Virus record (IMG/VR): IMGVR_UViG_3300023174_000052 | Location: 62,001 to 126,000 of that record | Source of the DNA: a virus | Reading direction: 5' to 3' (one strand) | Length of the DNA: 64,000 bases | In this document: positions 8,556 to 41,221 of the stretch, in pieces | Layout of the letters: the number at the start of each line of letters is the position of its first letter | How positions within the stretch are numbered: position 1 is the first letter of the stretch | Made by a program: the position numbers and the translations under genes | Notes under the pieces: model-generated | Seen by the model: only the letters and a program-made list of their open reading frames with translations | Database searches by the model: none | What the model was told of the DNA's origin: nothing

Positions 8556-9800
8556 ATGTTTAGACTGGCGTTAGTGTTTTTATTAGCCTCGCTCTCTTGC
8601 AATTCAGATTACGCGCTTAATGAAGAAGTTCCACCACCACCGCCTGCACCCGAACCTGACATATTAGTCGCAGGTGGTAGTCTAATCGTCGACGGTCTAC
8701 AACCAGGTTGCGAATCCCCAGGATCTTTTAGAATCTCTAACGTAGGCGAAGCGAATCTAACAGTAGATCAAATAGATGTATTCGCCAGTGCCCCCGTAGA
8801 TTCTATCATTCAACCCTACTCGAATAGATTACCCGTAACTATTATTCCTGGCGATTATTTCGAAGTTGAATTTATGACGACTTCTTCTGACAACGTCGAC
8901 GATGCTATCATCGCGATAGTGCATTCTGATGATCCGGATGAAAGTATTGTTCAAACTCAAGTAGAGATACCTTCAGCGCCAGGAGAACTCAGGGAAGAGA
9001 CTTTCGAAATCGAAGAGGCAAAATCAGCAGACATAATTCTTGTCGTTGATAACTCTGGCTCGATGTTAGAGGAACAGACTGAATTAGCATCTAATGCCCA
9101 ACTATTCGTCGATGAACTAAACGCTTCAAACATAGATTATAGAATTGCTGTTATAACGACAGACTCAAGTTATCATGCCGGGCCCTTCATCACACCATAT
9201 ACATCTAATCCTGCGTCTTTATTAGCATCAGAAGTCCTTGTGGGTATATTCGGTAGCGCAGTCGAAATGGGATTATACGAAGCCAAATTAGCTTTAGAAC
9301 CCCCAGGATTCGCGGCACCTGGTGGGAGTTTTCTTAGAGAAAATGCGAGGCTTTCTATTGTGTGGATATCCGACGAAGACGATTTCTCTGTCGGAGATGT
9401 CTCATCGTATGTATCAGATTTCTGGTCAAAGAAATCGTCACCAGGCGAAGTGTCAGTTTGGGGTATTATCGGAGATCCGATGTTAGGATGCTCGAGTGCC
9501 CAACCCGGTGATAGATACTACGATATCATTACTATCATGGGTGGTGGCTGGACTTCTATTTGTTCAAGAGACTGGGGTGCGCCACTCTCGGCTGTCGCCG
9601 GTAGTGTTGGTGTTGATTCTGTATTAGAACTATCAGGTAATCCAGCACCAGCCACGATAGAAGTAAAAGTTAATGGAACGCAAACATGGAATTGGGTATA
9701 TGTCGTGGCCGATAATTCAATATCGTTTAATCCAGGACATATACCCAATGTCGGTTCGCGTGTAGTAGTAAGTTATCAAACTTACGGAGAATGCGATTAG
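8556..9800 (+). CDS. VWA-domain putative secreted lipoprotein
   Basis: This 414-residue protein is the only credible plus-strand gene in the window. It starts at ATG after AGGAG. Residues 1-15 form a short basic/hydrophobic leader ending LASLSC, a relaxed lipobox, followed by a proline-rich linker. Residues ~35-150 look like a beta-sandwich (Hydin/choice-of-anchor type). Residues ~160-340 hold a von Willebrand factor A domain with MIDAS motif DNSGS and a later SDEDD acidic segment. The C-terminus is another beta-rich region. Proteins of this architecture are common in Gram-negative predators and myxobacterial relatives. In a phage this is probably an acquired accessory gene displayed at the cell surface; its role is unknown. 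Confidence 0.75.
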   Translation: MFRLALVFLLASLSCNSDYALNEEVPPPPPAPEPDILVAGGSLIVDGLQPGCESPGSFRISNVGEANLTVDQIDVFASAPVDSIIQPYSNRLPVTIIPGDYFEVEFMTTSSDNVDDAIIAIVHSDDPDESIVQTQVEIPSAPGELREETFEIEEAKSADIILVVDNSGSMLEEQTELASNAQLFVDELNASNIDYRIAVITTDSSYHAGPFITPYTSNPASLLASEVLVGIFGSAVEMGLYEAKLALEPPGFAAPGGSFLRENARLSIVWISDEDDFSVGDVSSYVSDFWSKKSSPGEVSVWGIIGDPMLGCSSAQPGDRYYDIITIMGGGWTSICSRDWGAPLSAVAGSVGVDSVLELSGNPAPATIEVKVNGTQTWNWVYVVADNSISFNPGHIPNVGSRVVVSYQTYGECD

Positions 9801-10265: not shown

Positions 10266-10583
10266 CTATTCAGGGAATTCTTTCTGTATCCACTTACTTC
10301 TTACTTCAATTCTTTTAACTTTCTCTTTTCTATCGAGTTGTTTAAATGCATATTCGGCTTTCAAAGCTTCACTCTTTGTTTGATATGGCCACCAACAAAG
10401 CATTTTAACAGGAATTCTTGAGCGAGTGTATTTTGCCCCTCGCCCAGAATTATGCATCGCTAAACGTCGATCTAAATCGTTCGTGATTCCAGTGTAGAGG
10501 GTCCCGTCCCTACATTGAAGGACGTAGACCCACCAGCACTCATCACCCCAGTATATTTCCTTACTCGAGTCCGTACTTGACAT
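10266..10583 (-). CDS. GIY-YIG nuclease, YhbQ/UPF0213-like
   Basis: This 105-residue protein is essentially a single GIY-YIG domain: WWVYVLQCRDGTLYTGITND (residues ~17-36) contains the VYVL and YTGIT strands, followed by the RR-x-x-x-H helix (Arg and His of the active site) and a downstream Glu in SEALKAEYAFKQL. It resembles bacterial YhbQ/UPF0213 proteins rather than intron homing enzymes, which carry additional DNA-binding modules. The ATG at 10581-10583 lies inside the ClpP-like gene end, overlapping by 23 bases. It may act in DNA repair or host DNA degradation; no target is evident. Confidence 0.85.
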   Translation of the reverse strand: MSSTDSSKEIYWGDECWWVYVLQCRDGTLYTGITNDLDRRLAMHNSGRGAKYTRSRIPVKMLCWWPYQTKSEALKAEYAFKQLDRKEKVKRIEVRSKWIQKEFPE

Positions 10584-11270: not shown

Positions 11271-13007
11271 TTAACTGCACTTTGACGAACCACAAGAAGA
11301 ACACGTCATGCATCCCTCTTGGTATACAAGACTGTCGCTACCACAATTTTGACATGTCTTACCTGCGATCGTAGTTCCATCCTTGATGTATCCCTTAAGG
11401 ACTCGCGAGATTGTCTTCGCGAACGAGAACATGTCGCTATTCTTATCTTTCTGGAGTTGTTCGACAACATATTGGATGGGTACTTCATGACGAAGGGCAA
11501 GAGAAATCGTCCTACTGAACGCACCTTGAGTTGGATTGTCAAATAAGTTAGCTACGTCCTTGAACATTAGCTCATCGTCTTCACCAAGTGGAATCGATAG
11601 ATTGTATGTTGACATTCCATCTCGTTTACCATTCTTGATAAGATTACCAATCTTGTGCTTCTTGGGCGCTTCAATATTTCCTGCTAATCCGCAGAAGACT
11701 TCGTAAGGCTTACCATCCAGAAGACCGATGAGTACCATCCAGTTTTCAGACTCGGTTCCATTACGTACAGTTACACGGTGAATGTCACATGGGATGGACT
11801 TCGGACGCTTCTTCGAATCACGGCCGGGTGGCTTCAATGGGTCCTGCTTCTTTGGAGCTTCCGTAGATACAAGCACACCATTACGACAACCATCACGATA
11901 GACAGTGAATCCCTTGCAACCAGATTCCCAAGCACGAAGATAAACGTCGGAGACTAATTCCTTCGTTGCTGAGTTCGGAAGGTTACACGTCTTCGAAATC
12001 GAGTGGTCAATCCAACGTTGCGCCGCAGCCTGTAATTCTACTGAAGATACCCAATCTACGTCGTTAGCAGTCGCACCCCAATAAGGAGATTCCTCAGGTG
12101 CCTCGAGTCCAGTTACATCCATCCACTTCTTAAACCAGTGATGATAAACGGTGTATTCTGTCCACTTATCTCCCAACTCATCTACGAAATCCACCTTCGA
12201 AGTGAAATCGCCAGGTGTAACCTTACGACGGCGCTTATAAGAAAGGAGGAACGCGGGTTCGATGCCTGAGGTGGTTCGGGTAAGACAAGAGACGGAACCG
12301 ACGGGTGCAGTGGTCGTCAATGCAATATTACGACGGCCAGTCTTACGCCACATCTCTTTTACGCTTTCACCGCATGCGTCCATGATCTTCGAGAGGTATT
12401 CATGATCCTTCTCTTTCTTATATTCGAACATTGGAAAAGGACCACGCTCATGAGCGAGGATACAAGAAGACGTATGCGCAGCAATCGCAAGAGAACGATA
12501 GATCTTTTCAGTCCACGTAATGGACTCTTCGCTACCATACTTTACACCGAGCGCAGCGAGACAATCTCCGAGACCCGTAATCCCCAACCCCGTACGGCGA
12601 CCGTTCAATCCCGCAGCGCGAATCTTCTGCCATAAGTCTCGTTCGATTTGTTTAACCTGGTTGGGTTCGGTGTCTCGTTCAAGCTTCTTAATAATCTTGT
12701 CAACGCACTCGACCTCGAGGTCAACGAGATCGTCCATTAGTCGCTGCGCTCGCATAGCGACCTTATGGAACCTATCGAAATCAAAGCGTGGCGAAGACGA
12801 GAACGGTTCGTTAACGAACGACGTAAGGTTAAGAACCATGAGACGACAAGAGTCATATGGAGACAGTGGAATCTCTCCACAATTATGAACGAGTAATCCA
12901 TTAGCGAAAAAATTGTGTGTATCGTCCACTGTTAAATCATAAACAGTTTCATTTTGTGCCTCTTCAATTGACACAATCTCATCCCAAAAAACATTACCTT
13001 CAATCAT
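11271..13007 (-). CDS. nrdJ: Class II ribonucleotide reductase C-terminal part with split-intein C-fragment
   Basis: This 578-residue protein begins with a 42-residue intein C-fragment (residues 1-42, ending in HN), followed by a C-extein that starts CGEIPLSPYDSCRL. Joined to the upstream N-part this restores the conserved N-P-C-G-E-I-P-L active-site motif of class II (B12-dependent) ribonucleotide reductase. Later segments include TTAPVGSVSCLTRTTSGIEPAF and the C-terminal CxxC-rich zinc-ribbon/redox tail (CQNCGSD...CMTCSSCG). The ATG at 13005-13007 follows GGAG and overlaps the end of the endonuclease gene. Function requires trans-splicing with the N-part; spliced length would be about 831 residues. 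The enzyme makes dNDP/dNTP for replication. Confidence 0.93.
   Translation of the reverse strand: MIEGNVFWDEIVSIEEAQNETVYDLTVDDTHNFFANGLLVHNCGEIPLSPYDSCRLMVLNLTSFVNEPFSSSPRFDFDRFHKVAMRAQRLMDDLVDLEVECVDKIIKKLERDTEPNQVKQIERDLWQKIRAAGLNGRRTGLGITGLGDCLAALGVKYGSEESITWTEKIYRSLAIAAHTSSCILAHERGPFPMFEYKKEKDHEYLSKIMDACGESVKEMWRKTGRRNIALTTTAPVGSVSCLTRTTSGIEPAFLLSYKRRRKVTPGDFTSKVDFVDELGDKWTEYTVYHHWFKKWMDVTGLEAPEESPYWGATANDVDWVSSVELQAAAQRWIDHSISKTCNLPNSATKELVSDVYLRAWESGCKGFTVYRDGCRNGVLVSTEAPKKQDPLKPPGRDSKKRPKSIPCDIHRVTVRNGTESENWMVLIGLLDGKPYEVFCGLAGNIEAPKKHKIGNLIKNGKRDGMSTYNLSIPLGEDDELMFKDVANLFDNPTQGAFSRTISLALRHEVPIQYVVEQLQKDKNSDMFSFAKTISRVLKGYIKDGTTIAGKTCQNCGSDSLVYQEGCMTCSSCGSSKCS
12882..13007 (-). other. 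Split intein C-fragment (IntC)
   Basis: Residues 1-42 of the C-terminal NrdJ gene. The block contains V-x-D-L-T-V-x-x-x-H-N-F-F-A-N-G-L-L-V-H-N, the classical intein F and G blocks with penultimate His and terminal Asn, followed by Cys as the +1 extein residue (codon 12879-12881). All residues needed for C-terminal cleavage are present. Confidence 0.93.
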
Positions 13008-13797
13008 TTTTTAACTCCATGAGTCTTACTTTCTTCCACTCATTAATAATATCTTTTTGTTTTCGATTTATTAATAAAAACAGTTCGTCTGAGATTAATT
13101 CGGCAGATATATCGCCGTATTCTTTTTTAAACATTTCGAATTTGTCGATTCTTTCTAAAGAACCATTTGACCACCTGGATTTAATCTCTACGATCTTGGA
13201 GAGATTATTGTTTTCGTAAATAAAAAAATCGGGTCGATAATATCTGCCATCTGACAGAAGGTACGAACGTGCTTCGACGTCCCATTCTATTCTGTTATCA
13301 TTTAAAAATTTTGCATAACCATATTCCCAAGAACTTCGCAACCAAACATATTTTGATTTAGATTCGTTAAGGTACCAACCCGCAACGTGATGTTTATTAA
13401 CGATATCTTTGTCTTTGTATTTTTCAGTCCAATTCGTCCACGGATTATTAGTCTTGGCACGCTCTGATCTTATCTTTTTTAAACCTTCTGTGACACAGTT
13501 TTGGCCCGCTCGTTTTTCTATTCCTAACGTTTCAAATACAGTTCTTAATCTTGTGTAAGAAATGTTTCCCAAGTAAGAACTAATCAACTTAAAACCCATT
13601 CCATTCTCTTCATACAAAATCGTTAGATTTCGTATTAATTTTTGACAATCTTTATGTGAGGCGTCGATTACATAACTTGCGGTTATCTTTCCACCTCTAC
13701 CTATAAATTCTCTTTTAATTTTAGAACAGGCTATTTCTTGTATTAATTCTCTGGTTTCGTTGATCAGTCCTTCTAACGCTTGAATATGTTCGTACAT
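13000..13797 (-). CDS. Free-standing Vsr-like homing endonuclease in fractured nrdJ
   Basis: This 265-residue protein lies exactly between the two halves of nrdJ. The N-terminal ~140 residues are basic and helical with a helix-turn-helix-like segment (~65-95), likely DNA-binding. The C-terminal region has W157-E158, a W-D-V-E (E175), Y-R-P-D-F (189-191 PDF) and V-E-I-K (204-206), the pattern of a Vsr/PD-(D/E)XK nuclease fold. Free-standing Vsr-like nucleases inserted between split-intein halves are known from phage genes in marine metagenomes, where they are thought to spread the fractured arrangement. Base composition is noticeably more AT-rich than the flanking nrdJ, consistent with independent acquisition. 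Confidence 0.85.
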   Translation of the reverse strand: MYEHIQALEGLINETRELIQEIACSKIKREFIGRGGKITASYVIDASHKDCQKLIRNLTILYEENGMGFKLISSYLGNISYTRLRTVFETLGIEKRAGQNCVTEGLKKIRSERAKTNNPWTNWTEKYKDKDIVNKHHVAGWYLNESKSKYVWLRSSWEYGYAKFLNDNRIEWDVEARSYLLSDGRYYRPDFFIYENNNLSKIVEIKSRWSNGSLERIDKFEMFKKEYGDISAELISDELFLLINRKQKDIINEWKKVRLMELKND

Positions 13798-13846
13798 TTA
13801 CTAATCCCTCCATTTATAAGTATATTGCAAGGATTAGTAAATTTTC

Positions 13847-15028
13847 TCATTTAGAATCAAAGGAAAGAATTTTATCGTCTTTTGTTAAATCTGCCGCTTC
13901 GACCCAACCGCGTTGTGTGTATACGCGGTGATCTGGCGTTAATCTAATTTTCTTTCCTGACTTGGTTTTTAGTTCAAGAATCTTTGCGTCATCTTTCGTC
14001 TTAAACGCAACAGCTGACTTTTTAACGACTTCTTTCTTTTCGGTATCAAAGGACTCTACAAAGAACTGCGCATTTTGTTCTGCCAACTCTTTTACAGTCT
14101 TTTCTCCTGCATTTGTTAGGACCAGAGTATCTCCTGTCACGCATGGATTTGTCGAAATTGACTTATAGCCCATTGACTCGTAAATATCTGCCGTTCCATT
14201 CTTCGTAACATTGTCCCAGAACAAAGCGCCTGGTTCTGCCGAAGACCATGCTGCATCCACGAACTGGTCCCAGATTGCCTTAGCCGATACTGTCTTTGTG
14301 TATTCGGCGTTCTCTACGCTCTTCTCTACGGGCCACCGGAGTGTAAAATCCGTACCTGACTTCACGGCATGCATAAACTCATCCGTGAAACGAATAGAAA
14401 TATTTGCACCAGTTACCTTCTTAAGATCACGCTTGATATTAATGAAGGTCTCGATCTCTGGGTGGCGACAGTCGATTGAAAGCATCAACGCTCCTCGACG
14501 ACCGCCTTGGGCGACCTCTCGACATGAATTTGAGAATCGCTCCATGAACACGCCGATACCGTCAGTCGTACGAGCAGCGTTAGAAGTAGGAAGACCCTTG
14601 GGACGAATGTTCGATACGTCGAATCCTACGCCACCGCGACGCTTCATGATTTGAACCTGCTCTTGGTCAGAGAATAAGATGCCGCCGTAAGAATCTTTAG
14701 GGCTATCGATGACGAAACAGTTCGAAAGCGACTGAATCTGATAGGGATTTCCAATTCCTGACATCGGAGAACCTTGCGGAACAATGTCTGCGAAATTCTT
14801 GAAGTATCCGTAGATTTCTTCTTCAGACATTGGATTGGGATACTTCGATTCTACGTGGGCGAATGCCTTCGCCAAGCGACGGTGCATCTGGTCTGGATTC
14901 GTTTCCAGAAGTTCACCCGCTTCATTTCGAAGCGCGTATTTCATGAATACATCAGGAGCAAGTGGATCTCCATCAAAGTATTCAGATGTTTCACGTAGCG
15001 CGATCTCTTGTACGTTAGTTAAAGACAT
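13847..15028 (-). CDS. nrdJ: Class II ribonucleotide reductase N-terminal part with split-intein N-fragment
   Basis: The longest frame extends to 15058, but the ATG at 15026-15028 has GGGGAG at proper distance and lies right after the helicase stop, so this start (393 residues) is chosen. Residues 1-295 are the N-extein of class II ribonucleotide reductase, with SLSNCFVIDSPKDSYGGI and RRGGVGFDVSNIRPKG segments, ending S-T-N-P. Residues 296-393 are an intein N-fragment beginning CVTGDT. The gene then stops at 13847 and the endonuclease gene follows. The product must be joined to the downstream C-part by trans-splicing. Confidence 0.93.
   Translation of the reverse strand: MSLTNVQEIALRETSEYFDGDPLAPDVFMKYALRNEAGELLETNPDQMHRRLAKAFAHVESKYPNPMSEEEIYGYFKNFADIVPQGSPMSGIGNPYQIQSLSNCFVIDSPKDSYGGILFSDQEQVQIMKRRGGVGFDVSNIRPKGLPTSNAARTTDGIGVFMERFSNSCREVAQGGRRGALMLSIDCRHPEIETFINIKRDLKKVTGANISIRFTDEFMHAVKSGTDFTLRWPVEKSVENAEYTKTVSAKAIWDQFVDAAWSSAEPGALFWDNVTKNGTADIYESMGYKSISTNPCVTGDTLVLTNAGEKTVKELAEQNAQFFVESFDTEKKEVVKKSAVAFKTKDDAKILELKTKSGKKIRLTPDHRVYTQRGWVEAADLTKDDKILSFDSK
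13850..14143 (-). other. Split intein N-fragment (IntN)
   Basis: The last 98 residues of the N-terminal NrdJ gene form a short intein N-half: Cys1 (CVTGDTLV, block A), and block B LTPDHRVYTQRGW with the T-x-x-H-type motif (TPDH), ending ILSFDSK. Length and motifs match natural fast split inteins in nrdJ and gp41 of environmental phages. No endonuclease domain is fused. Confidence 0.92.
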
Positions 15029-15030
15029 TT

Positions 15031-16410
15031 TTACTTGCTCCCCATTACTTCTTTCCATTTTGCTTGTAGGACTCGTTTTCTTTCGCTTTCATCTTGAGCC
15101 AAAGATTCTTGAAGACTCAAACTATTTTCATCAAGGATTCTAATTTTAGAGCGAGAAGTGTCAATGTGTACTGGAAAAATGATGCCATCTCGGCCGGCTC
15201 GATTCTTCGCAACGAACATTCTCCCCATTCCAGTCGCCTTTTCCGAAGGTTTTCGCGATAGAGAAATTACTACGTCGGCGACCATTGCCTTACCATAAGA
15301 TTCAGACATGTTCTCCAAACCTACGACGTCTGCGTTCGAACCCTCTCTATTCGACTGCGAAGCAGTCCAGATTGGGATAGCCTTTTCCATTGCAAGATTT
15401 CGTAGATCTTCATAGATTAGTTTTAGCTCCATTCGTAGAGCGTCGAATTCTCGACTCGAACGCATAATGTCGGCGTAGTCAATAATGATAACATGCGGGA
15501 CGAATCCACGAAGAGCTAACTTTTCTAAGTGATTTCGAATAGTAGCAACTGTACATGTACCGGTTGGATACTCTTTAATAATCAACCTACCGAGTTCCAT
15601 GCCCTTATACATATCGATGACATTTGTCTTCGAATCCTGAATGTCACTCGATGGGATATCCGTTAGATTTGAATCGTATCGAATTCCTACAGCAGTCTCG
15701 GTCAGTTCGAAAGTATAATGAACAACGTTCTTGCCGACCTTTAACGCGTTAGCTCCCATAGCAACAAGAAAGTGAGACTTTCCAACACCAGTTGGAGCGG
15801 CTATAACTCCAAGTTCACCCTTGCCAAGACCACCATTTAGAACAGAGCGTTCGTCAAGCTGTTCGATACCAGTTGGACAAGGCATGCGATTAATCTTAAC
15901 GAAACGCGCTTCCATATCTTCGAAGAAATCATGACCAACAGATGCTGCGATACCAACGGATACCGCCTTCTTCATGAGATCGACAACTGCGTCATACTGG
16001 TCGGTACCGATGAGCTCAACAGATTTATTAAGAGCTTCCTTCATCGCTTGCTTGCGACAAAAATCCAGAGACTTATCTTTTACATACGCGAGATCTCCCA
16101 TATCAGGAAGCGTACGCATGCGTGTTAAGTATTCTACGACCTGCTCTTTAAGAACTTCGTTATTCGTTTCTCGAAGGTCGTCTTTGACGATGGAGATTAG
16201 AAGGGGAAGGGTTGGAAAGTTCTTGTACTTCTCAAAGTACTTGAAATACTTGTCGGTCAAATAAGCGAGATAACGTAGATCGAAAAAATCCGATCGCATT
16301 ACTTCTGTCATTTGTGTAGCCCAAGTTGTATCTGTGATCAAACCAAGAAAGATTCTTTCCTGGAATGGGCGACCGTATTGTCCAAAGTAATTCTCACTAC
16401 CGTCAATCAT
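15031..16410 (-). CDS. Replicative DnaB-type helicase (gp41-like)
   Basis: This 459-residue protein starts at ATG after AGAGGAAAG. The N-terminal ~170 residues are helical (DnaB N-domain-like). The RecA-type motor domain has Walker A APTGVGKS near residue 204, an F-E-L-T-E segment (H1a region), Walker B VIIIDYADIM near residue 305, and the sensor-like IWTASQSNREGS and MVADVVISLSRKP segments. It is a hexameric 5'-3' helicase unwinding DNA at the fork, working with the primase encoded at 61173-62138. It immediately precedes nrdJ with two bases between genes. Unlike several relatives it is not interrupted by an intein. Confidence 0.93.
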   Translation of the reverse strand: MIDGSENYFGQYGRPFQERIFLGLITDTTWATQMTEVMRSDFFDLRYLAYLTDKYFKYFEKYKNFPTLPLLISIVKDDLRETNNEVLKEQVVEYLTRMRTLPDMGDLAYVKDKSLDFCRKQAMKEALNKSVELIGTDQYDAVVDLMKKAVSVGIAASVGHDFFEDMEARFVKINRMPCPTGIEQLDERSVLNGGLGKGELGVIAAPTGVGKSHFLVAMGANALKVGKNVVHYTFELTETAVGIRYDSNLTDIPSSDIQDSKTNVIDMYKGMELGRLIIKEYPTGTCTVATIRNHLEKLALRGFVPHVIIIDYADIMRSSREFDALRMELKLIYEDLRNLAMEKAIPIWTASQSNREGSNADVVGLENMSESYGKAMVADVVISLSRKPSEKATGMGRMFVAKNRAGRDGIIFPVHIDTSRSKIRILDENSLSLQESLAQDESERKRVLQAKWKEVMGSK

Positions 16411-35292: not shown

Positions 35293-38199
35293 TTATATTG
35301 TGGCGCCCGCATTTGTGACGACGAAGTCTAACGAGACGAACTCGATCGACTTGGTGGGTTGGACGAAGATCTTACCTCTGATGGTGTTATTTTCGACGTC
35401 GGCCTGTGTGGTCGTTGTCGTGTCTATCTTAACCAGGTAACGGTCAACACCAGACTGTGCCTGAATCTGTTTAAGGATTGGATCGACTAAATTAGAGAAT
35501 CGAGCTAATGTCTCTTCGCGATTGGGCTCGAATAGAATCTGGTTAGATGCTACTCTGACACGGCGGCGAATTTCGATGAGTAGACGACGTACGTTAACTC
35601 TATCAAGAGCTGACGTTCTATTCAACAACGTCTTTTGACCGTTGATGATTGGAGAAGGTGATCCTGGAATCGTCGCGATTGGATTGATGTTCGCAGAATA
35701 TAGAGTGTCCATGTTGTCTCTATTTAATTTTGTCTGTGTCTCGGTGACGTCGCCCAGAGCACCACGAGTAAAGCCCGCGGGAGCGAACCAAGGATACGCA
35801 ACTCTATCGTTGAGAGAGAAAGCTCCAAGGGCAGCAACTGACGGTGGAGCAACGACTTCCATTCCTGTCGTTGGGTCTGCGATAACGACGTCAGGGTAAT
35901 ATGCTGCGCCAAACGAGCTATCTAGCTGTCTATCCTTAAACGAAGAAGCTGTAAATGTTACTGATGGCGTTTCACTTGAGCCGGTTATAACTAGTCCGTT
36001 AGTATTACGTTCTTCGATATCCATGATATATAACGCGTCGAATCGATTTTCGACAGCATCAAGAGCGTAGTCAGTAACTCCAGGTTCTCTCATACCAGGA
36101 ATTGTGATGAGTTGGACGTCGACATCGGAGCGTTCTGCGATAACGTCGACTGCCTTTCTATAAGAAGCGACTGTCGCACCAAAAGCGCCACCCTGTGTAG
36201 CCGAATTAACCATCTCGCGAAGAGCAGCAAGGTTGTTCATTTTCGATTTATTGGAGTCAAGGGAATTGACACCGTCGAAACCACCTTGTAAGTTAAACGT
36301 AAATTTAATATATTTCCTACTGCCTAGATCTGCGAGATCGGACGTTTGTAGGAATCTATTAAATGATGCGCCTAAAACTCCATCGCGACTATACGTAGCG
36401 ACAGCCCATTGATTTGGATCGGGTAAACCAGTGATCGAAGCCGTTTTGACCTGTATCTGATCAATTGAGAATAAGTTATTCGCGAATTTGTCTGCTTCTA
36501 CGGAGTCTCCTATCCAGGGGTTCGGGAAATCTGTATGATATTTTGCGAAGTATTTAGAGTAAGAAGCTACGTTGCTATTCGCCCAATTATTTTTGTTTTG
36601 TTCTAAAACACTATCGATTGCTTCATATTGAACGCCCCAGTGCAAGTAAGGGGTAACTCTAATCGATGTTCCGGTTCCTTGCGATATTGTTTTACGGAAG
36701 GGAAGAGGCAATTGTTTAACGTTATCTAAGCTAGCGATACCCGCTCTGTGAAGCATTCCTTTGGTATTCAAGTGATAGTATCCTCTGAACCCGAACGGTA
36801 ACGACGTCGCAGGAACTTCTGCGTTCTCTACTGACGGAGCGACTTCTATTCTTATGTAGTTGGAATTGTTAGGATACAATCCGTCGACGACCAACTTCTG
36901 GCTGCCCGCTTCGCGATCGAAATCGTAATAAACGTGTGTATCGCCAATCACTCTTGCGATGTACTTAGGAGACGAAGGATCCAAGCTTAAACCTATAAAA
37001 GTCTCGAGAACAACTTGGTTGTCATCACTATCTCTAAAGTCTCTTACATATAAATCGAATGTTCCATAATCCGACGTGGGATCTGACGAGGGGGTTAATC
37101 CGCGTATAGAAATCTTAACTCTTTCATTTGGCCATGCGCCGTCATCAAGAGCGTGGACCTTGAATAGATTTTCTCTTTCGCCACCGAACTTTTGTGAAAC
37201 GATCCAAGGAGAAACAGCAGTTGTGAATCTATCTTCGAATCCTTCAAAGTTTGGAATAGAAGTCGAACCGCTATTGTGTCCTAACGCACCTGTTAAAATA
37301 AACGCAACGTTATTCTTGTGGTTAGGTGCTAACGTTTCAGCAACATTTGTACCTGTCACAATAGCAAATGAAGGATAGACATCCCAAGAAGCAGCCAAAC
37401 AGTGTCCTGCGATTTCGGTCTTCGTTAGATCTGTATTGAAGATATTTCCGAAGTAATTTGGAGCGACAGGATCGAATGACGCTGTGATCGTGTTCGGATA
37501 AGATACTGTTGAAATGTGTCCTGACAAGAACATTACAAACTCTTGCTTCGCATTCGAGAGATCGACAGTACCACTTAACAAGCCGTGCATACTACTGGGC
37601 GCGGCGTTTATTGGGAGATCGTTATCTGCGAAAATACTAGATGACAAAGATAGAAGCACACCACTTGGAGTTAAAATAACTCCTCGAAGAACGGGAACAG
37701 CTCCAGCGCCAGTCTGTAATCCTGATTCGCTAAGTAACGTCGAGCCGTTTGATTCGGACATGAAGCAACCTAAAAAGTGCGTGCGTCCGCTTTTGCTTCC
37801 TGCGTTATTGTATGCGTATGGATTCGAATCTAAATCGCCCGAAGTTTGAACCTGTTCGCTACCGACGACGAATCCTGCGTTAGTGACTTTGCCTTTATTG
37901 ACGCCATCTGATACTCTCTTTTTGGCATCTCCAGCGCCCAGGATTCGAATGTATAGACCAGAACCTGCGTTCTTAAGCCATTGATACATCGCGATAGGTC
38001 CCATACGCTCGCCGTTCGAATTACCAAATTTCGTCGTGAATTCTCTATAATTTGCCGCGACGGTTGGAACGTAAGCGGGGCCTCGCTCTGAGGTACCAAT
38101 AACGCCAGCGGGTGTTCCTGTTGGAGAAACGCGGGATGGAGAGGAGAGGTCAATCTCTCTCACACCGACCCCAGCGCTCTTATAAGTCAGCTCTGCCAT
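35293..38199 (-). CDS. Tail sheath protein, paralogue 1
   Basis: This 968-residue protein starts MAELTYKSAGVGVREIDLSSPSRV with GTPAGVIGTSERGPAYVP, the conserved sheath N-terminus, and ends with DRVNVRRLLIEIRRRV...NQILFEPN and SIEFVSLDFVVTNAG, the conserved C-terminal domain that links neighbouring subunits. The central ~500 residues are variable protrusion domains, making it longer than T4 gp18 (659). The sheath contracts to drive the tube through the envelope. A second, similar gene lies directly upstream, so two sheath paralogues are made. Confidence 0.93.
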   Translation of the reverse strand: MAELTYKSAGVGVREIDLSSPSRVSPTGTPAGVIGTSERGPAYVPTVAANYREFTTKFGNSNGERMGPIAMYQWLKNAGSGLYIRILGAGDAKKRVSDGVNKGKVTNAGFVVGSEQVQTSGDLDSNPYAYNNAGSKSGRTHFLGCFMSESNGSTLLSESGLQTGAGAVPVLRGVILTPSGVLLSLSSSIFADNDLPINAAPSSMHGLLSGTVDLSNAKQEFVMFLSGHISTVSYPNTITASFDPVAPNYFGNIFNTDLTKTEIAGHCLAASWDVYPSFAIVTGTNVAETLAPNHKNNVAFILTGALGHNSGSTSIPNFEGFEDRFTTAVSPWIVSQKFGGERENLFKVHALDDGAWPNERVKISIRGLTPSSDPTSDYGTFDLYVRDFRDSDDNQVVLETFIGLSLDPSSPKYIARVIGDTHVYYDFDREAGSQKLVVDGLYPNNSNYIRIEVAPSVENAEVPATSLPFGFRGYYHLNTKGMLHRAGIASLDNVKQLPLPFRKTISQGTGTSIRVTPYLHWGVQYEAIDSVLEQNKNNWANSNVASYSKYFAKYHTDFPNPWIGDSVEADKFANNLFSIDQIQVKTASITGLPDPNQWAVATYSRDGVLGASFNRFLQTSDLADLGSRKYIKFTFNLQGGFDGVNSLDSNKSKMNNLAALREMVNSATQGGAFGATVASYRKAVDVIAERSDVDVQLITIPGMREPGVTDYALDAVENRFDALYIMDIEERNTNGLVITGSSETPSVTFTASSFKDRQLDSSFGAAYYPDVVIADPTTGMEVVAPPSVAALGAFSLNDRVAYPWFAPAGFTRGALGDVTETQTKLNRDNMDTLYSANINPIATIPGSPSPIINGQKTLLNRTSALDRVNVRRLLIEIRRRVRVASNQILFEPNREETLARFSNLVDPILKQIQAQSGVDRYLVKIDTTTTTQADVENNTIRGKIFVQPTKSIEFVSLDFVVTNAGATI

Positions 38200-38221: not shown

Positions 38222-38230
38222 TATGTATCA
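38222..38230 (-). promoter_or_regulatory. TGATACATA box before sheath paralogue 1
   Basis: TGATACATA on the minus strand lies between the two sheath genes, its TGA being the stop codon of the upstream sheath. The same nine bases occur before the gp13-like neck gene and before a head-core gene. It may be the late-promoter -10 box of this phage, replacing the T4 TATAAATA. Start codon is about 22 bases further down. Confidence 0.4.
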
Positions 38231-41221
38231 TTGAAACGAAACGCCCGAGTTCGTAATTACGAAATCTATCGCAATAAATTCAATTGTTCTCGTAGGAACA
38301 ATGACAATGCGACCGTTAACTCGGTTTGCGTCTATATCTGCCTGACTGTTATTCGAAGAATCCATTACGACTTGGAAACGCTCGATACCTGCCTGCGCCT
38401 GAATAACTCCTAATTTAGGAGTAACTGCGTTAACGAAACGCTGACGCGTGGTAGGAGTATTTTGTTCGAAGAGAATCTTGTTCGCTTCTTCTGCGACCGT
38501 TTTCTTCACTTCGACCATTAGACGTCGAACGTTTAGACGATCAAGTGAAGATTTCGAAAGTTGTAGTGTCTTCTGTCCGAAAATAACGAAACCACCTGAT
38601 GGGAACGATGCGATCGGATTGATGCGTGCGTCGTAGAGTGTATCGCGGTCGGCGGCGTTAAGACGAACCGTAACGTTCTTAACGAAGTCAAGAGCACCAC
38701 GATTGAAACCTGCAGGTGCGAACCAAGGATAAGCAACACGATCATTATACGCGATAGCGCCGAGAATCGCTACTGAAGCAGGAACTTTAATTCTTCTTGG
38801 CGAGCCCGAAGTTTCAATGAATACATCTGGGTAGTATACAGATGTGTAGTTGTTATCTATGTTTAATGCTGCGAATGTTTCTGACGTATAACGAACGCTT
38901 GGTTTCGTGGTCGAATCATCCCATAGTCTAGAACCCGTATCATCGTACGATGCGATGTCTCTTATGTGGACCATGAGAGCATTCGATCGAACTCTATCAG
39001 CTAAATGATCCTGGACGAGTGGGTCTCTAATACCTGGTATCGAAACGATATTCGCGTTTGAACTAAACTCGTCAGTTAATATGTCTGCAGCAACTCTATA
39101 AGAACTGATGATGTTATTGTCGACGCCCGCTCCTGCAACGTTCACATTTAATCCGGCCTCGATATCTCCCCTAGCCTTTCCACCCAGTTCCACAGACGAC
39201 GCTTTGTCGTTCATCTTTCCGTTGTCTCTATCGAGTATATTAAGCCCATCGAATCCACCATAGAAATTATTTGTAAACTTCGCGTATGGTGTGAATCTAT
39301 TGAAGACTACAGAAGAACTATTAATTAGCGTTGCTAACGTTACACGAGATTGTGTTCCGAATGTTACACGATAGTCTGAACCATCTGGTATTCCATCTCT
39401 AACGTAAGCAGCACCTCTCATTAACACATCAGCAGAACCAGTCACGTTTGCGAACGTCGTCGACTCTAAAGCAACTCTAGCTAACGTAAATTTATTCGCA
39501 TTTAAAACGTCTGACGCTGAACCTGATACTAGCGTATCTTTCTTTGCTATACCTAAAAACTTAGATAAATTACGTATTAATTTATTTTCAACGACGCTAT
39601 TATTTGGATCGAGTACAGAATCAAGAGGAACTGATTGAAACATCACGCCCCAATATAATCTCGAATCGACTCTCTCATTAGGACCAGGTGTTCCTATATT
39701 ATCGGCGTTGGTTGTCATAGTTCCTCTCGTAACCTTAAATCTAAACGGTGTAGGAGGAATCAAAGAGTTTAATAAATTTGCGTATGTTACTTCGGCGTGT
39801 AAACGACTTTCACCTGTAAATAACTGACCATCGAATGTTAGACTATTCGAATTATCGCTTAGAGAATCTACTGTCTTAAGGGTAGGTAGACCTCTAAATC
39901 CGAACGGTAACGCCGCGGCGGGAACGTCTCCACTGTCGACCCTATCATTCATTATAACTCGAATCAACCTACTGCGATTCGCAAACTTGCCCGATATTAA
40001 TAGACGTCGTTCAGAATCTACATCGGTGTCGAAATTATAAGAAACTTTCTTATCACCTATCTTTTTCGCGATGTAATTATCTGCTTTAGGATTTAAACTA
40101 AGTTTCGGATAGTATTCGACTATTTGTGGAGAGAGATCGTCATCTTCGAACTTGCGGACAACGACATCGAAACTACCATATGGATTCGATTTATCAGTAG
40201 AGGCCACGATATTCTGAATCGAGACCTTGTAGAGATCGTTCGCAATCGCACCGTCTGATATAGACTCAAAATGAAATAAATCATATTCAAATTTACCGAA
40301 TGGTTGCGATATAAACGCGGTCGTTCTAGGCGCTTGATATCTTGTATCAAAACGACCAAAGTCGTTTAGCCAATTTGTCGATCCTGTTAGCGCAGCTACG
40401 CTTCTTGTCGTAGTATCGATTTTTGCAATTTCTACGTCGACAGGAAAATCTGCATATAAGAGATGTTTCTTTTCTGCGAATAGATCGGGGTCGGTATTTA
40501 AAACCTTTGTAATATAGTTATCGTCTTTTGGATCCAGAGAAGCAGTTAAAATTCTCATAACTCCGCCATTCGACGAAGATATGACGATCTTAAATTTATT
40601 TTTCATCTCGCCGGTCGGACCAGGTCTTGCTTCGTGATGATTTCCATAAGCATATGAACCGCTGTAGTCGAGTAATTGTATTCTCGTGTCTTCAGCAGTG
40701 AATATCATTCCGCGAACGAGGTTTGCAGTGTGTGATGTATACGATGGATTATCTATAAACATAGGTGAGGAGTAATCAGCTTGACCATTAACTATATGTT
40801 TTGCAGATAGAAAAACGACTGAACCTTCTGAGGCACTATAAATTGCAGGAACGCCAGGCTTGTAATAATTCGTATCTGACTTGATTACAAATCCTGCATT
40901 TTTTACTGTGCCTTCGTTTAATGTCTCGTCTATATCATCGGCGGTCTTATTCGCGCCTGCTCCAAGTGTTCTTACGAATGTAAAAGCGCTTCGGTGTTTG
41001 AGCCATTCGTTAGCAGCGTATGTCGCAGGCATTTCGTGGTTTAAACCACCGAATCTAGATTGAAAGTCTTCGAAATTTCCGACTGTCACGGGAACGAAAG
41101 CCGGTCCAAGTTTTGATGTACCAGCTACGCCGATTGGCGTGCCGACCGGTCCCGTCGCGCCGGCGATGAGTTCTATCTCCTGCTCAAAAAATCCAGGAGA
41201 TCGAAAAGTTTGTTCAGCCAT
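38228..41221 (-). CDS. Tail sheath protein, paralogue 2
   Basis: This 997-residue protein begins MAEQTFRSPGFFEQEIEL with GTPIGVAGTSKLGPAFVP and ends LDRLNVRRLMVEVKKTV...NKILFEQN and TIEFIAIDFVITNSG, parallel to the downstream paralogue in both conserved ends. Internal blocks such as NDRVAYPWFAPAGFNRGALDFV are shared, while the middle has diverged. The two may alternate in the sheath or occupy different positions, for example one at the collar or baseplate end. ATG 41219-41221 is preceded by AGGGAGC. Confidence 0.93.
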   Translation of the reverse strand: MAEQTFRSPGFFEQEIELIAGATGPVGTPIGVAGTSKLGPAFVPVTVGNFEDFQSRFGGLNHEMPATYAANEWLKHRSAFTFVRTLGAGANKTADDIDETLNEGTVKNAGFVIKSDTNYYKPGVPAIYSASEGSVVFLSAKHIVNGQADYSSPMFIDNPSYTSHTANLVRGMIFTAEDTRIQLLDYSGSYAYGNHHEARPGPTGEMKNKFKIVISSSNGGVMRILTASLDPKDDNYITKVLNTDPDLFAEKKHLLYADFPVDVEIAKIDTTTRSVAALTGSTNWLNDFGRFDTRYQAPRTTAFISQPFGKFEYDLFHFESISDGAIANDLYKVSIQNIVASTDKSNPYGSFDVVVRKFEDDDLSPQIVEYYPKLSLNPKADNYIAKKIGDKKVSYNFDTDVDSERRLLISGKFANRSRLIRVIMNDRVDSGDVPAAALPFGFRGLPTLKTVDSLSDNSNSLTFDGQLFTGESRLHAEVTYANLLNSLIPPTPFRFKVTRGTMTTNADNIGTPGPNERVDSRLYWGVMFQSVPLDSVLDPNNSVVENKLIRNLSKFLGIAKKDTLVSGSASDVLNANKFTLARVALESTTFANVTGSADVLMRGAAYVRDGIPDGSDYRVTFGTQSRVTLATLINSSSVVFNRFTPYAKFTNNFYGGFDGLNILDRDNGKMNDKASSVELGGKARGDIEAGLNVNVAGAGVDNNIISSYRVAADILTDEFSSNANIVSIPGIRDPLVQDHLADRVRSNALMVHIRDIASYDDTGSRLWDDSTTKPSVRYTSETFAALNIDNNYTSVYYPDVFIETSGSPRRIKVPASVAILGAIAYNDRVAYPWFAPAGFNRGALDFVKNVTVRLNAADRDTLYDARINPIASFPSGGFVIFGQKTLQLSKSSLDRLNVRRLMVEVKKTVAEEANKILFEQNTPTTRQRFVNAVTPKLGVIQAQAGIERFQVVMDSSNNSQADIDANRVNGRIVIVPTRTIEFIAIDFVITNSGVSFQ

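Follow-up and report, generated by a model that had tools for sequence, protein, structure and literature searches.

Split organization of the nrdJ gene

We analysed a 64,000-nucleotide stretch of DNA, hereafter called the window, which corresponds to bases 62001-126000 of IMG/VR virus record IMGVR_UViG_3300023174_000052 (record length 175,594 bases); its assumed origin from an uncultured phage was supported. Three minus-strand genes follow one another in it, in the order nrdJ-N, endonuclease open reading frame (ORF) and nrdJ-C, with genes for a RecA/UvsX recombinase, a 5'-3' exonuclease and a DnaB-like helicase located upstream. The outer two encode halves of the ribonucleotide reductase (RNR) NrdJ, joined to the N- and C-terminal halves of a split intein (IntN and IntC). 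The features are listed below (aa, amino acids; HTH, helix-turn-helix; SD, Shine-Dalgarno sequence).

13847-15028, minus: nrdJ-N, 295-aa extein ending STNP plus 98-aa IntN
14144..15028, minus: NrdJ N-extein, 295 aa, C-terminus STNP; PF02867 9.5e-37, TIGR02504 1.4e-58
13850..14143, minus: IntN, 98 aa, with Cys1 and TPDH (block B); PF14890 positions 2-93, TIGR01445 over its full length
13796..13842, minus: predicted 14-bp RNA hairpin, fold z -3.1
13000..13797, minus: endonuclease, 265 aa, putative HTH-like N-terminal region and C-terminal PD-(D/E)XK nuclease
13102..13389, minus: nuclease domain, about residues 137-232, catalytic E158, D190, E204 and K206 (alignment of 50 relatives)
13015..13018, minus: GGAG SD of the IntC gene, within the 3' end of the endonuclease gene
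11271-13007, minus: nrdJ-C, 42-aa IntC plus 536-aa extein
12882..13007, minus: IntC, 42 aa, C-terminus VHN; PF14890 positions 116-155, TIGR01443
11271..12881, minus: NrdJ C-extein, 536 aa, N-terminus CGEIPL, Cys+1 being the predicted catalytic cysteine; PF02867 4.5e-50, TIGR02504 2.1e-87

Each gene has its own SD: GGGGAG for nrdJ-N, GGAGGG for the endonuclease and GGAG for nrdJ-C. The nrdJ-N start was placed at the ATG at 15028 (an alternative ATG at 15058 is likewise in the open frame), and from this start the computed length of spliced NrdJ is 831 aa, which reproduces the value of the initial annotation. The IntN stop codon occupies 13847-13849. The endonuclease is, as had been proposed, a free-standing gene in the gap, with a 265-aa ORF separate from both intein ORFs and carrying its own start and SD. 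No RNA family or tRNA was found in the window, so nothing points to a group I intron in the gap.

Both NrdJ halves match the RNR barrel (Pfam PF02867), and both are typed as class II, adenosylcobalamin-dependent enzyme by NCBIfam model TIGR02504, which outscores TIGR02506 for either half. The motif N-P-C-x-E forms the finger loop of RNRs, and its cysteine (C439 in Escherichia coli NrdA, C408 in L. leichmannii RTPR) bears the thiyl radical. The initial reading of a class II RNR fractured at this residue holds: the break falls between STNP and CGEIPL, and as the intein directly precedes the catalytic cysteine (NP^CGEI), the splicing residue Cys+1 is also the future catalytic residue. NrdJ is presumably inactive before splicing. 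Neither a second RNR large subunit nor a second intein was found across the 175.6-kb record; therefore, as far as the record is complete, functional NrdJ must derive from the two halves.

The intein splicing domain PF14890 is divided over both genes (profile positions 2-93 and 116-155 of 155), and its absent middle coincides exactly with the gap. NCBIfam models for the complete intein N-terminal region (TIGR01445, 1.7e-16) and the C-terminal region (TIGR01443, 2.4e-10) are matched as well, and the residues of a class 1 split intein are all present, namely Cys1, TPDH (the TxxH of block B), the penultimate His, the terminal Asn and Cys+1, in agreement with the earlier claim that every splicing residue can be seen. 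Domain support for a fractured RNR with a split intein far exceeds chance. The initial annotation had also suggested a comparison with the NrdJ-1 intein; the joined IntN and IntC match the NrdJ-1 structure 8UBS at E 2e-15.

A conserved enzyme gene is thus found in two pieces, each fused to one intein half. Fractured genes of this kind have been known since 2009 (Dassa 2009, as cited in PMC3653736), and the window locus belongs to that kind. AceL NrdHF (PMC7891396) similarly combines a fractured phage RNR gene, a split intein with a 98-aa IntN and an intervening endonuclease gene; it differs in affecting the RNR beta subunit, in its class 3 intein (Ala1) and in its GIY-YIG endonuclease.

Relatives, insertion sites and fold of the endonuclease

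A search with the endonuclease sequence alone found L002, an independent 6.2-kb contig of identical three-gene architecture. A search of IMG/VR from the endonuclease alignment, which relied on conserved family peptides and would miss members devoid of them, gave 111 confirmed relatives, 80 of them listed, and after merging of near-identical copies 53 distinct ones were left. All but one of these (52/53) adjoin IntN and IntC in an RNR gene, always as separate ORFs, with a few loci cut at a contig end. The arrangement had been called rare, which does not hold, as IMG/VR contains 52 or more distinct members of this single sub-kind. Queries with the endonucleases of the window, L007, L108 and L153 detected no full-length relative in 50,697 phage records, only partial weak matches, and a pattern search confirmed none in 84,980 genomes. 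One might also suppose that the locus is a gene break or an assembly artefact leaving two non-splicing fragments. We consider this close to negligible: the same structure occurs in L002 and in about 50 diverged loci, all splicing motifs are retained, and the record holds no other RNR.

The insertion site is that of the window, NP^C[GASVC]E, in 29 loci and NPC^[CS]EI, one codon later, in 23. At least three switches between these sites are needed on the endonuclease tree, and the starred branches force two. Class II models were the best match in all eight individually typed loci (window included), and across 50 C-halves the commonest RNR matches were the class II models RTPR and NrdJ_Z. One of the loci, L003, contains an intein whose residues 2-144 are identical to those of NrdJ-1 in 8UBS; L003 is therefore a natural NrdJ-1 locus, and its endonuclease is related to that of the window. 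In NrdJ-1 (L003; Dassa 2009, Carvajal-Vallejos 2012, PDB 8UBS), as in the window, a split intein interrupts a class II RNR at the active-site cysteine loop; the halves enclose a related endonuclease (39% in the part that aligns), whose gene contains the IntC start. The two differ in that NrdJ-1 has the site NPC^SEI, Ser+1 and an RTPR-type RNR (TIGR02505), whereas the window has NP^CGEI, Cys+1 and a NrdJ_Z-type RNR (TIGR02504).

Several further features of the relatives were observed. The insertion points within one endonuclease family are exactly one codon apart, on either side of the catalytic cysteine. The sole free-standing relative among the 53, at L009 5635-6279, has no adjoining intein, and a seven-sequence alignment that includes it contains one member with a NUMOD3 match. 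A second intein or intein-like half was seen in the same RNR gene of L101, L107, L134, L156, L158 and L170.

In 50 aligned relatives, the PD-(D/E)XK catalytic set is invariant (E158, P189-D190 and E204-x-K206). The closest solved sequence is T7 endonuclease I (E 0.005-0.01), with all four catalytic residues in register and with RS..E, PDF and ExK aligning residue by residue; its Pfam family, PF05367, is matched at E <= 0.01 by nine of the 50 members. T7 endonuclease I is a Holliday-junction resolvase lacking an HTH-like N-terminal half, and it is not known to be a homing enzyme. In the window protein, helices are predicted at residues 69-76 and 81-91, with invariant G68, K70 and R85, and HTH matches occur in single members; together these suggest that the N-terminal half is an HTH DNA-binding region.

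The initial annotation had described the enzyme as Vsr-like. At the level of the superfamily the term is acceptable, as PD-(D/E)XK proteins form the one that holds Vsr and I-Bth0305I. It does not hold for the EDxHD signature: the 50 relatives share the set E-D-E-x-K, with no invariant histidine and no second invariant aspartate, and the nearest solved sequence is that of T7 endonuclease I. The EDxHD enzymes, of which I-Bth0305I is one, are likewise phage proteins with a PD-(D/E)XK-like fold, multi-domain with a DNA-binding N-terminal part, as is predicted for the window enzyme. A structure model built from 50 sequences (mean pLDDT 88.6; it superseded a seven-sequence model with pLDDT 68) gave Foldseek top matches that lacked significant E-values and included many PD-(D/E)XK proteins, TnsA among them (probability 1.00). 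The modelled resemblance to the catalytic domain of I-Bth0305I (3r3p) had a TM-score of 0.61 by target, probability 0.94 and E 0.22, with other PD-(D/E)XK folds ranking above it, and no sequence match to 3r3p was obtained up to E 10.

Expression signals at the endonuclease gene

In the stretch that separates the IntN stop from the endonuclease ATG a 14-bp stem is predicted, and its 3' arm covers the last part of the SD (GGAGGG, 13806-13811) together with the AU of the start codon. The arms are the same in L002 with an altered loop, while strong stems of quite different sequence are present at the equivalent position in L004, L096, L108, L153 and L160. Altogether, 24 of 52 loci have a hairpin at p <= 0.05 where about three would be expected. 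This position and recurrence argue that the hairpin probably represses the endonuclease. It is known that in I-TevI and in mobE, which breaks a phage RNR gene, an RBS (ribosome-binding site)-sequestering hairpin blocks early translation of the endonuclease gene (PMC2988022). The window resembles these systems in having a stem that would conceal the RBS of an endonuclease gene within an operon, and is unlike them in that its endonuclease lies inside a split intein and that late promoters TATAAATA are not in excess.

As for such promoters, the T4-like late promoter TATAAATA occurs 3 times in the window against 3.9 expected. The candidate TATAAATG near the endonuclease start was rejected as a late promoter, as its transcripts would start past the SD. 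As a separate observation, the T4 late-promoter box in reverse complement, TATTTATA, is found repeatedly near the endonuclease start in one clade (L098, L103, L108, L119, L122 and L125), and TATAAAT, in forward sense, recurs near this start in other loci.

Of 51 loci, 48 have the IntC start embedded in the endonuclease gene; the window's two genes overlap in ATGATTGA. Because of this embedding, deletion of the endonuclease would often take away the start of the essential C-half, and its loss is thus probably costly. Embedded promoters favour retention of the T4 seg genes (PMC2988022), to which we liken the embedded IntC start.

Cassette mobility, its interpretation and neighbouring genes

Intein-free alleles, which the initial annotation had proposed to look for in related phages, do exist: the closest nrdJ genes, from 80 loci with 60-75% identity, run without a break through the window's insertion site. 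The cassette itself is shared with L002 at amino acid identities of 93% for IntN, 85% for the endonuclease and 93% for IntC, against 74% for both exteins, and it is at the outer ends of the intein, rather than those of the endonuclease, that identity steps down. Four-fold sites are identical at 66/109 positions in the cassette vs 63/215 in the exteins (Fisher p 9e-8). As the extein value equals the chance level set by base composition (0.30), saturation has been reached in the flanks but not in the cassette. Furthermore, the DnaB, exonuclease, UvsX and NrdJ exteins of L002 are all nearer to intein-free phages (e.g. L018 and L019) than to the window, DnaB being 88% and NrdJ 83% identical to the former and 77% and 74% to the latter. 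A clade of window and L002 is rejected on concatenated DnaB, exonuclease and NrdJ exteins (approximately unbiased, AU, test, p 0.001), a test picked after the extein-only outcome was known.

With a cassette that is 85-93% identical and flanks that are saturated and of different lineage, the whole cassette, intein included, moved as a unit, and on this historical evidence it appears to have spread into empty alleles independently of its flanks. Endonuclease and intein distances also correlate beyond extein distance (partial Mantel 0.40, 0/500 permutations). The endonuclease has a dN/dS of 0.05-0.07 against L002, and IntN and IntC have values of 0.04-0.05 and 0.06; these low values (0.04-0.07) mean that all three parts have been maintained; an active intein would be consistent with them.

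A mobile, selfish fractured-gene cassette is very probably the best explanation of this locus. We propose that the sole RNR large-subunit gene (class II, NrdJ) would be made as two proteins. Association of their IntN and IntC would lead to trans-splicing and link STNP to CGEIPL, which would turn Cys+1, the nucleophile of splicing, into the catalytic thiyl-radical cysteine. The PD-(D/E)XK homing endonuclease would cleave nrdJ alleles that lack the intein, close to the conserved codons AAYCC^TGYGG, and repair from the intein-bearing copy would transfer IntN, endonuclease and IntC jointly. To this are added the probable repression of the endonuclease by the hairpin in the operon mRNA and the probable cost of its deletion set by the IntC start in its 3' end.

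Some results weigh against this proposal. The NrdJ exteins alone do not reject the window and L002 clade (AU p 0.43), its rejection requiring the neighbouring genes; a significant hairpin is absent in 28 of 52 loci, and among the five nearest loci the hairpin shows no more covariation than shuffles do; the match to T7 endonuclease I is weak, and no Pfam family is matched significantly by the window endonuclease itself. The first of these points, together with some intein-extein correlation across loci, could fit a vertically inherited, domesticated split intein, with a single ancestral entry, the endonuclease as a leftover and the present scatter due to repeated loss. This seems improbable to us, as synonymous sites of the cassette are far less diverged than the saturated extein sites, L002 groups with intein-free phages by its flanking genes, purifying selection acts on an intact endonuclease, and many precise losses of three parts are unlikely.

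It may also be imagined that only the endonuclease is mobile, having inserted alone into a formerly contiguous intein whose halves are passive. A free-standing relative, that of L009, exists, and fractured genes were reportedly proposed by Dassa et al. in 2009 to show how endonucleases integrate into inteins. We regard this possibility as very improbable for the transfer described here: between the window and L002 the intein halves are more alike than the endonuclease, and since the step in identity coincides with the outer ends of the intein, the intein took part in the recent transfer. Such an insertion may describe the ancient origin of the arrangement.

Returning to the mobile cassette, its endonuclease might represent an undescribed PD-(D/E)XK homing family near T7 endonuclease I, almost confined to split inteins that interrupt class II RNR genes at the catalytic-cysteine codon, homing as a three-gene unit and entrenched by the essential C-half start within its own 3' end. 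This more specific proposal is tentative, and we find it somewhat more doubtful than probable.

The fast split inteins used in protein engineering come from fractured genes, and the locus with its relatives provides some 50 natural IntN/IntC pairs together with their native exteins. The comparative evidence points to a split intein and an endonuclease that move as one unit, and to one endonuclease family that has stayed with two neighbouring sites by the active-site cysteine of RNR. What is added here is comparative, namely the mobility of the cassette, its site fidelity, the catalytic signature, the recurrent RBS hairpins and the embedded IntC start. Moreover, as the NrdJ-1 intein is now placed in a natural locus with its own endonuclease, homing of a fractured gene becomes directly testable.

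Other genes of the window were also noted. About 0.7 kb downstream of nrdJ-C, beside a ClpP-like protease gene, a 105-aa GIY-YIG protein is encoded at 10266-10583 (minus); it is the record's only GIY-YIG protein and could represent a second endonuclease gene. A single plus-strand gene amid minus-strand genes, at 8556-9800, has a lipoprotein-like start and a VWA-like DIILVVDNSGSM stretch, as read from its sequence. Finally, two adjacent minus-strand genes at 35293-38199 and 38228-41221 encode proteins of 968 and 997 aa whose C-terminal thirds match tail sheath, and they are, as judged from these matches, a putative duplicated sheath gene of a contractile-tailed phage.

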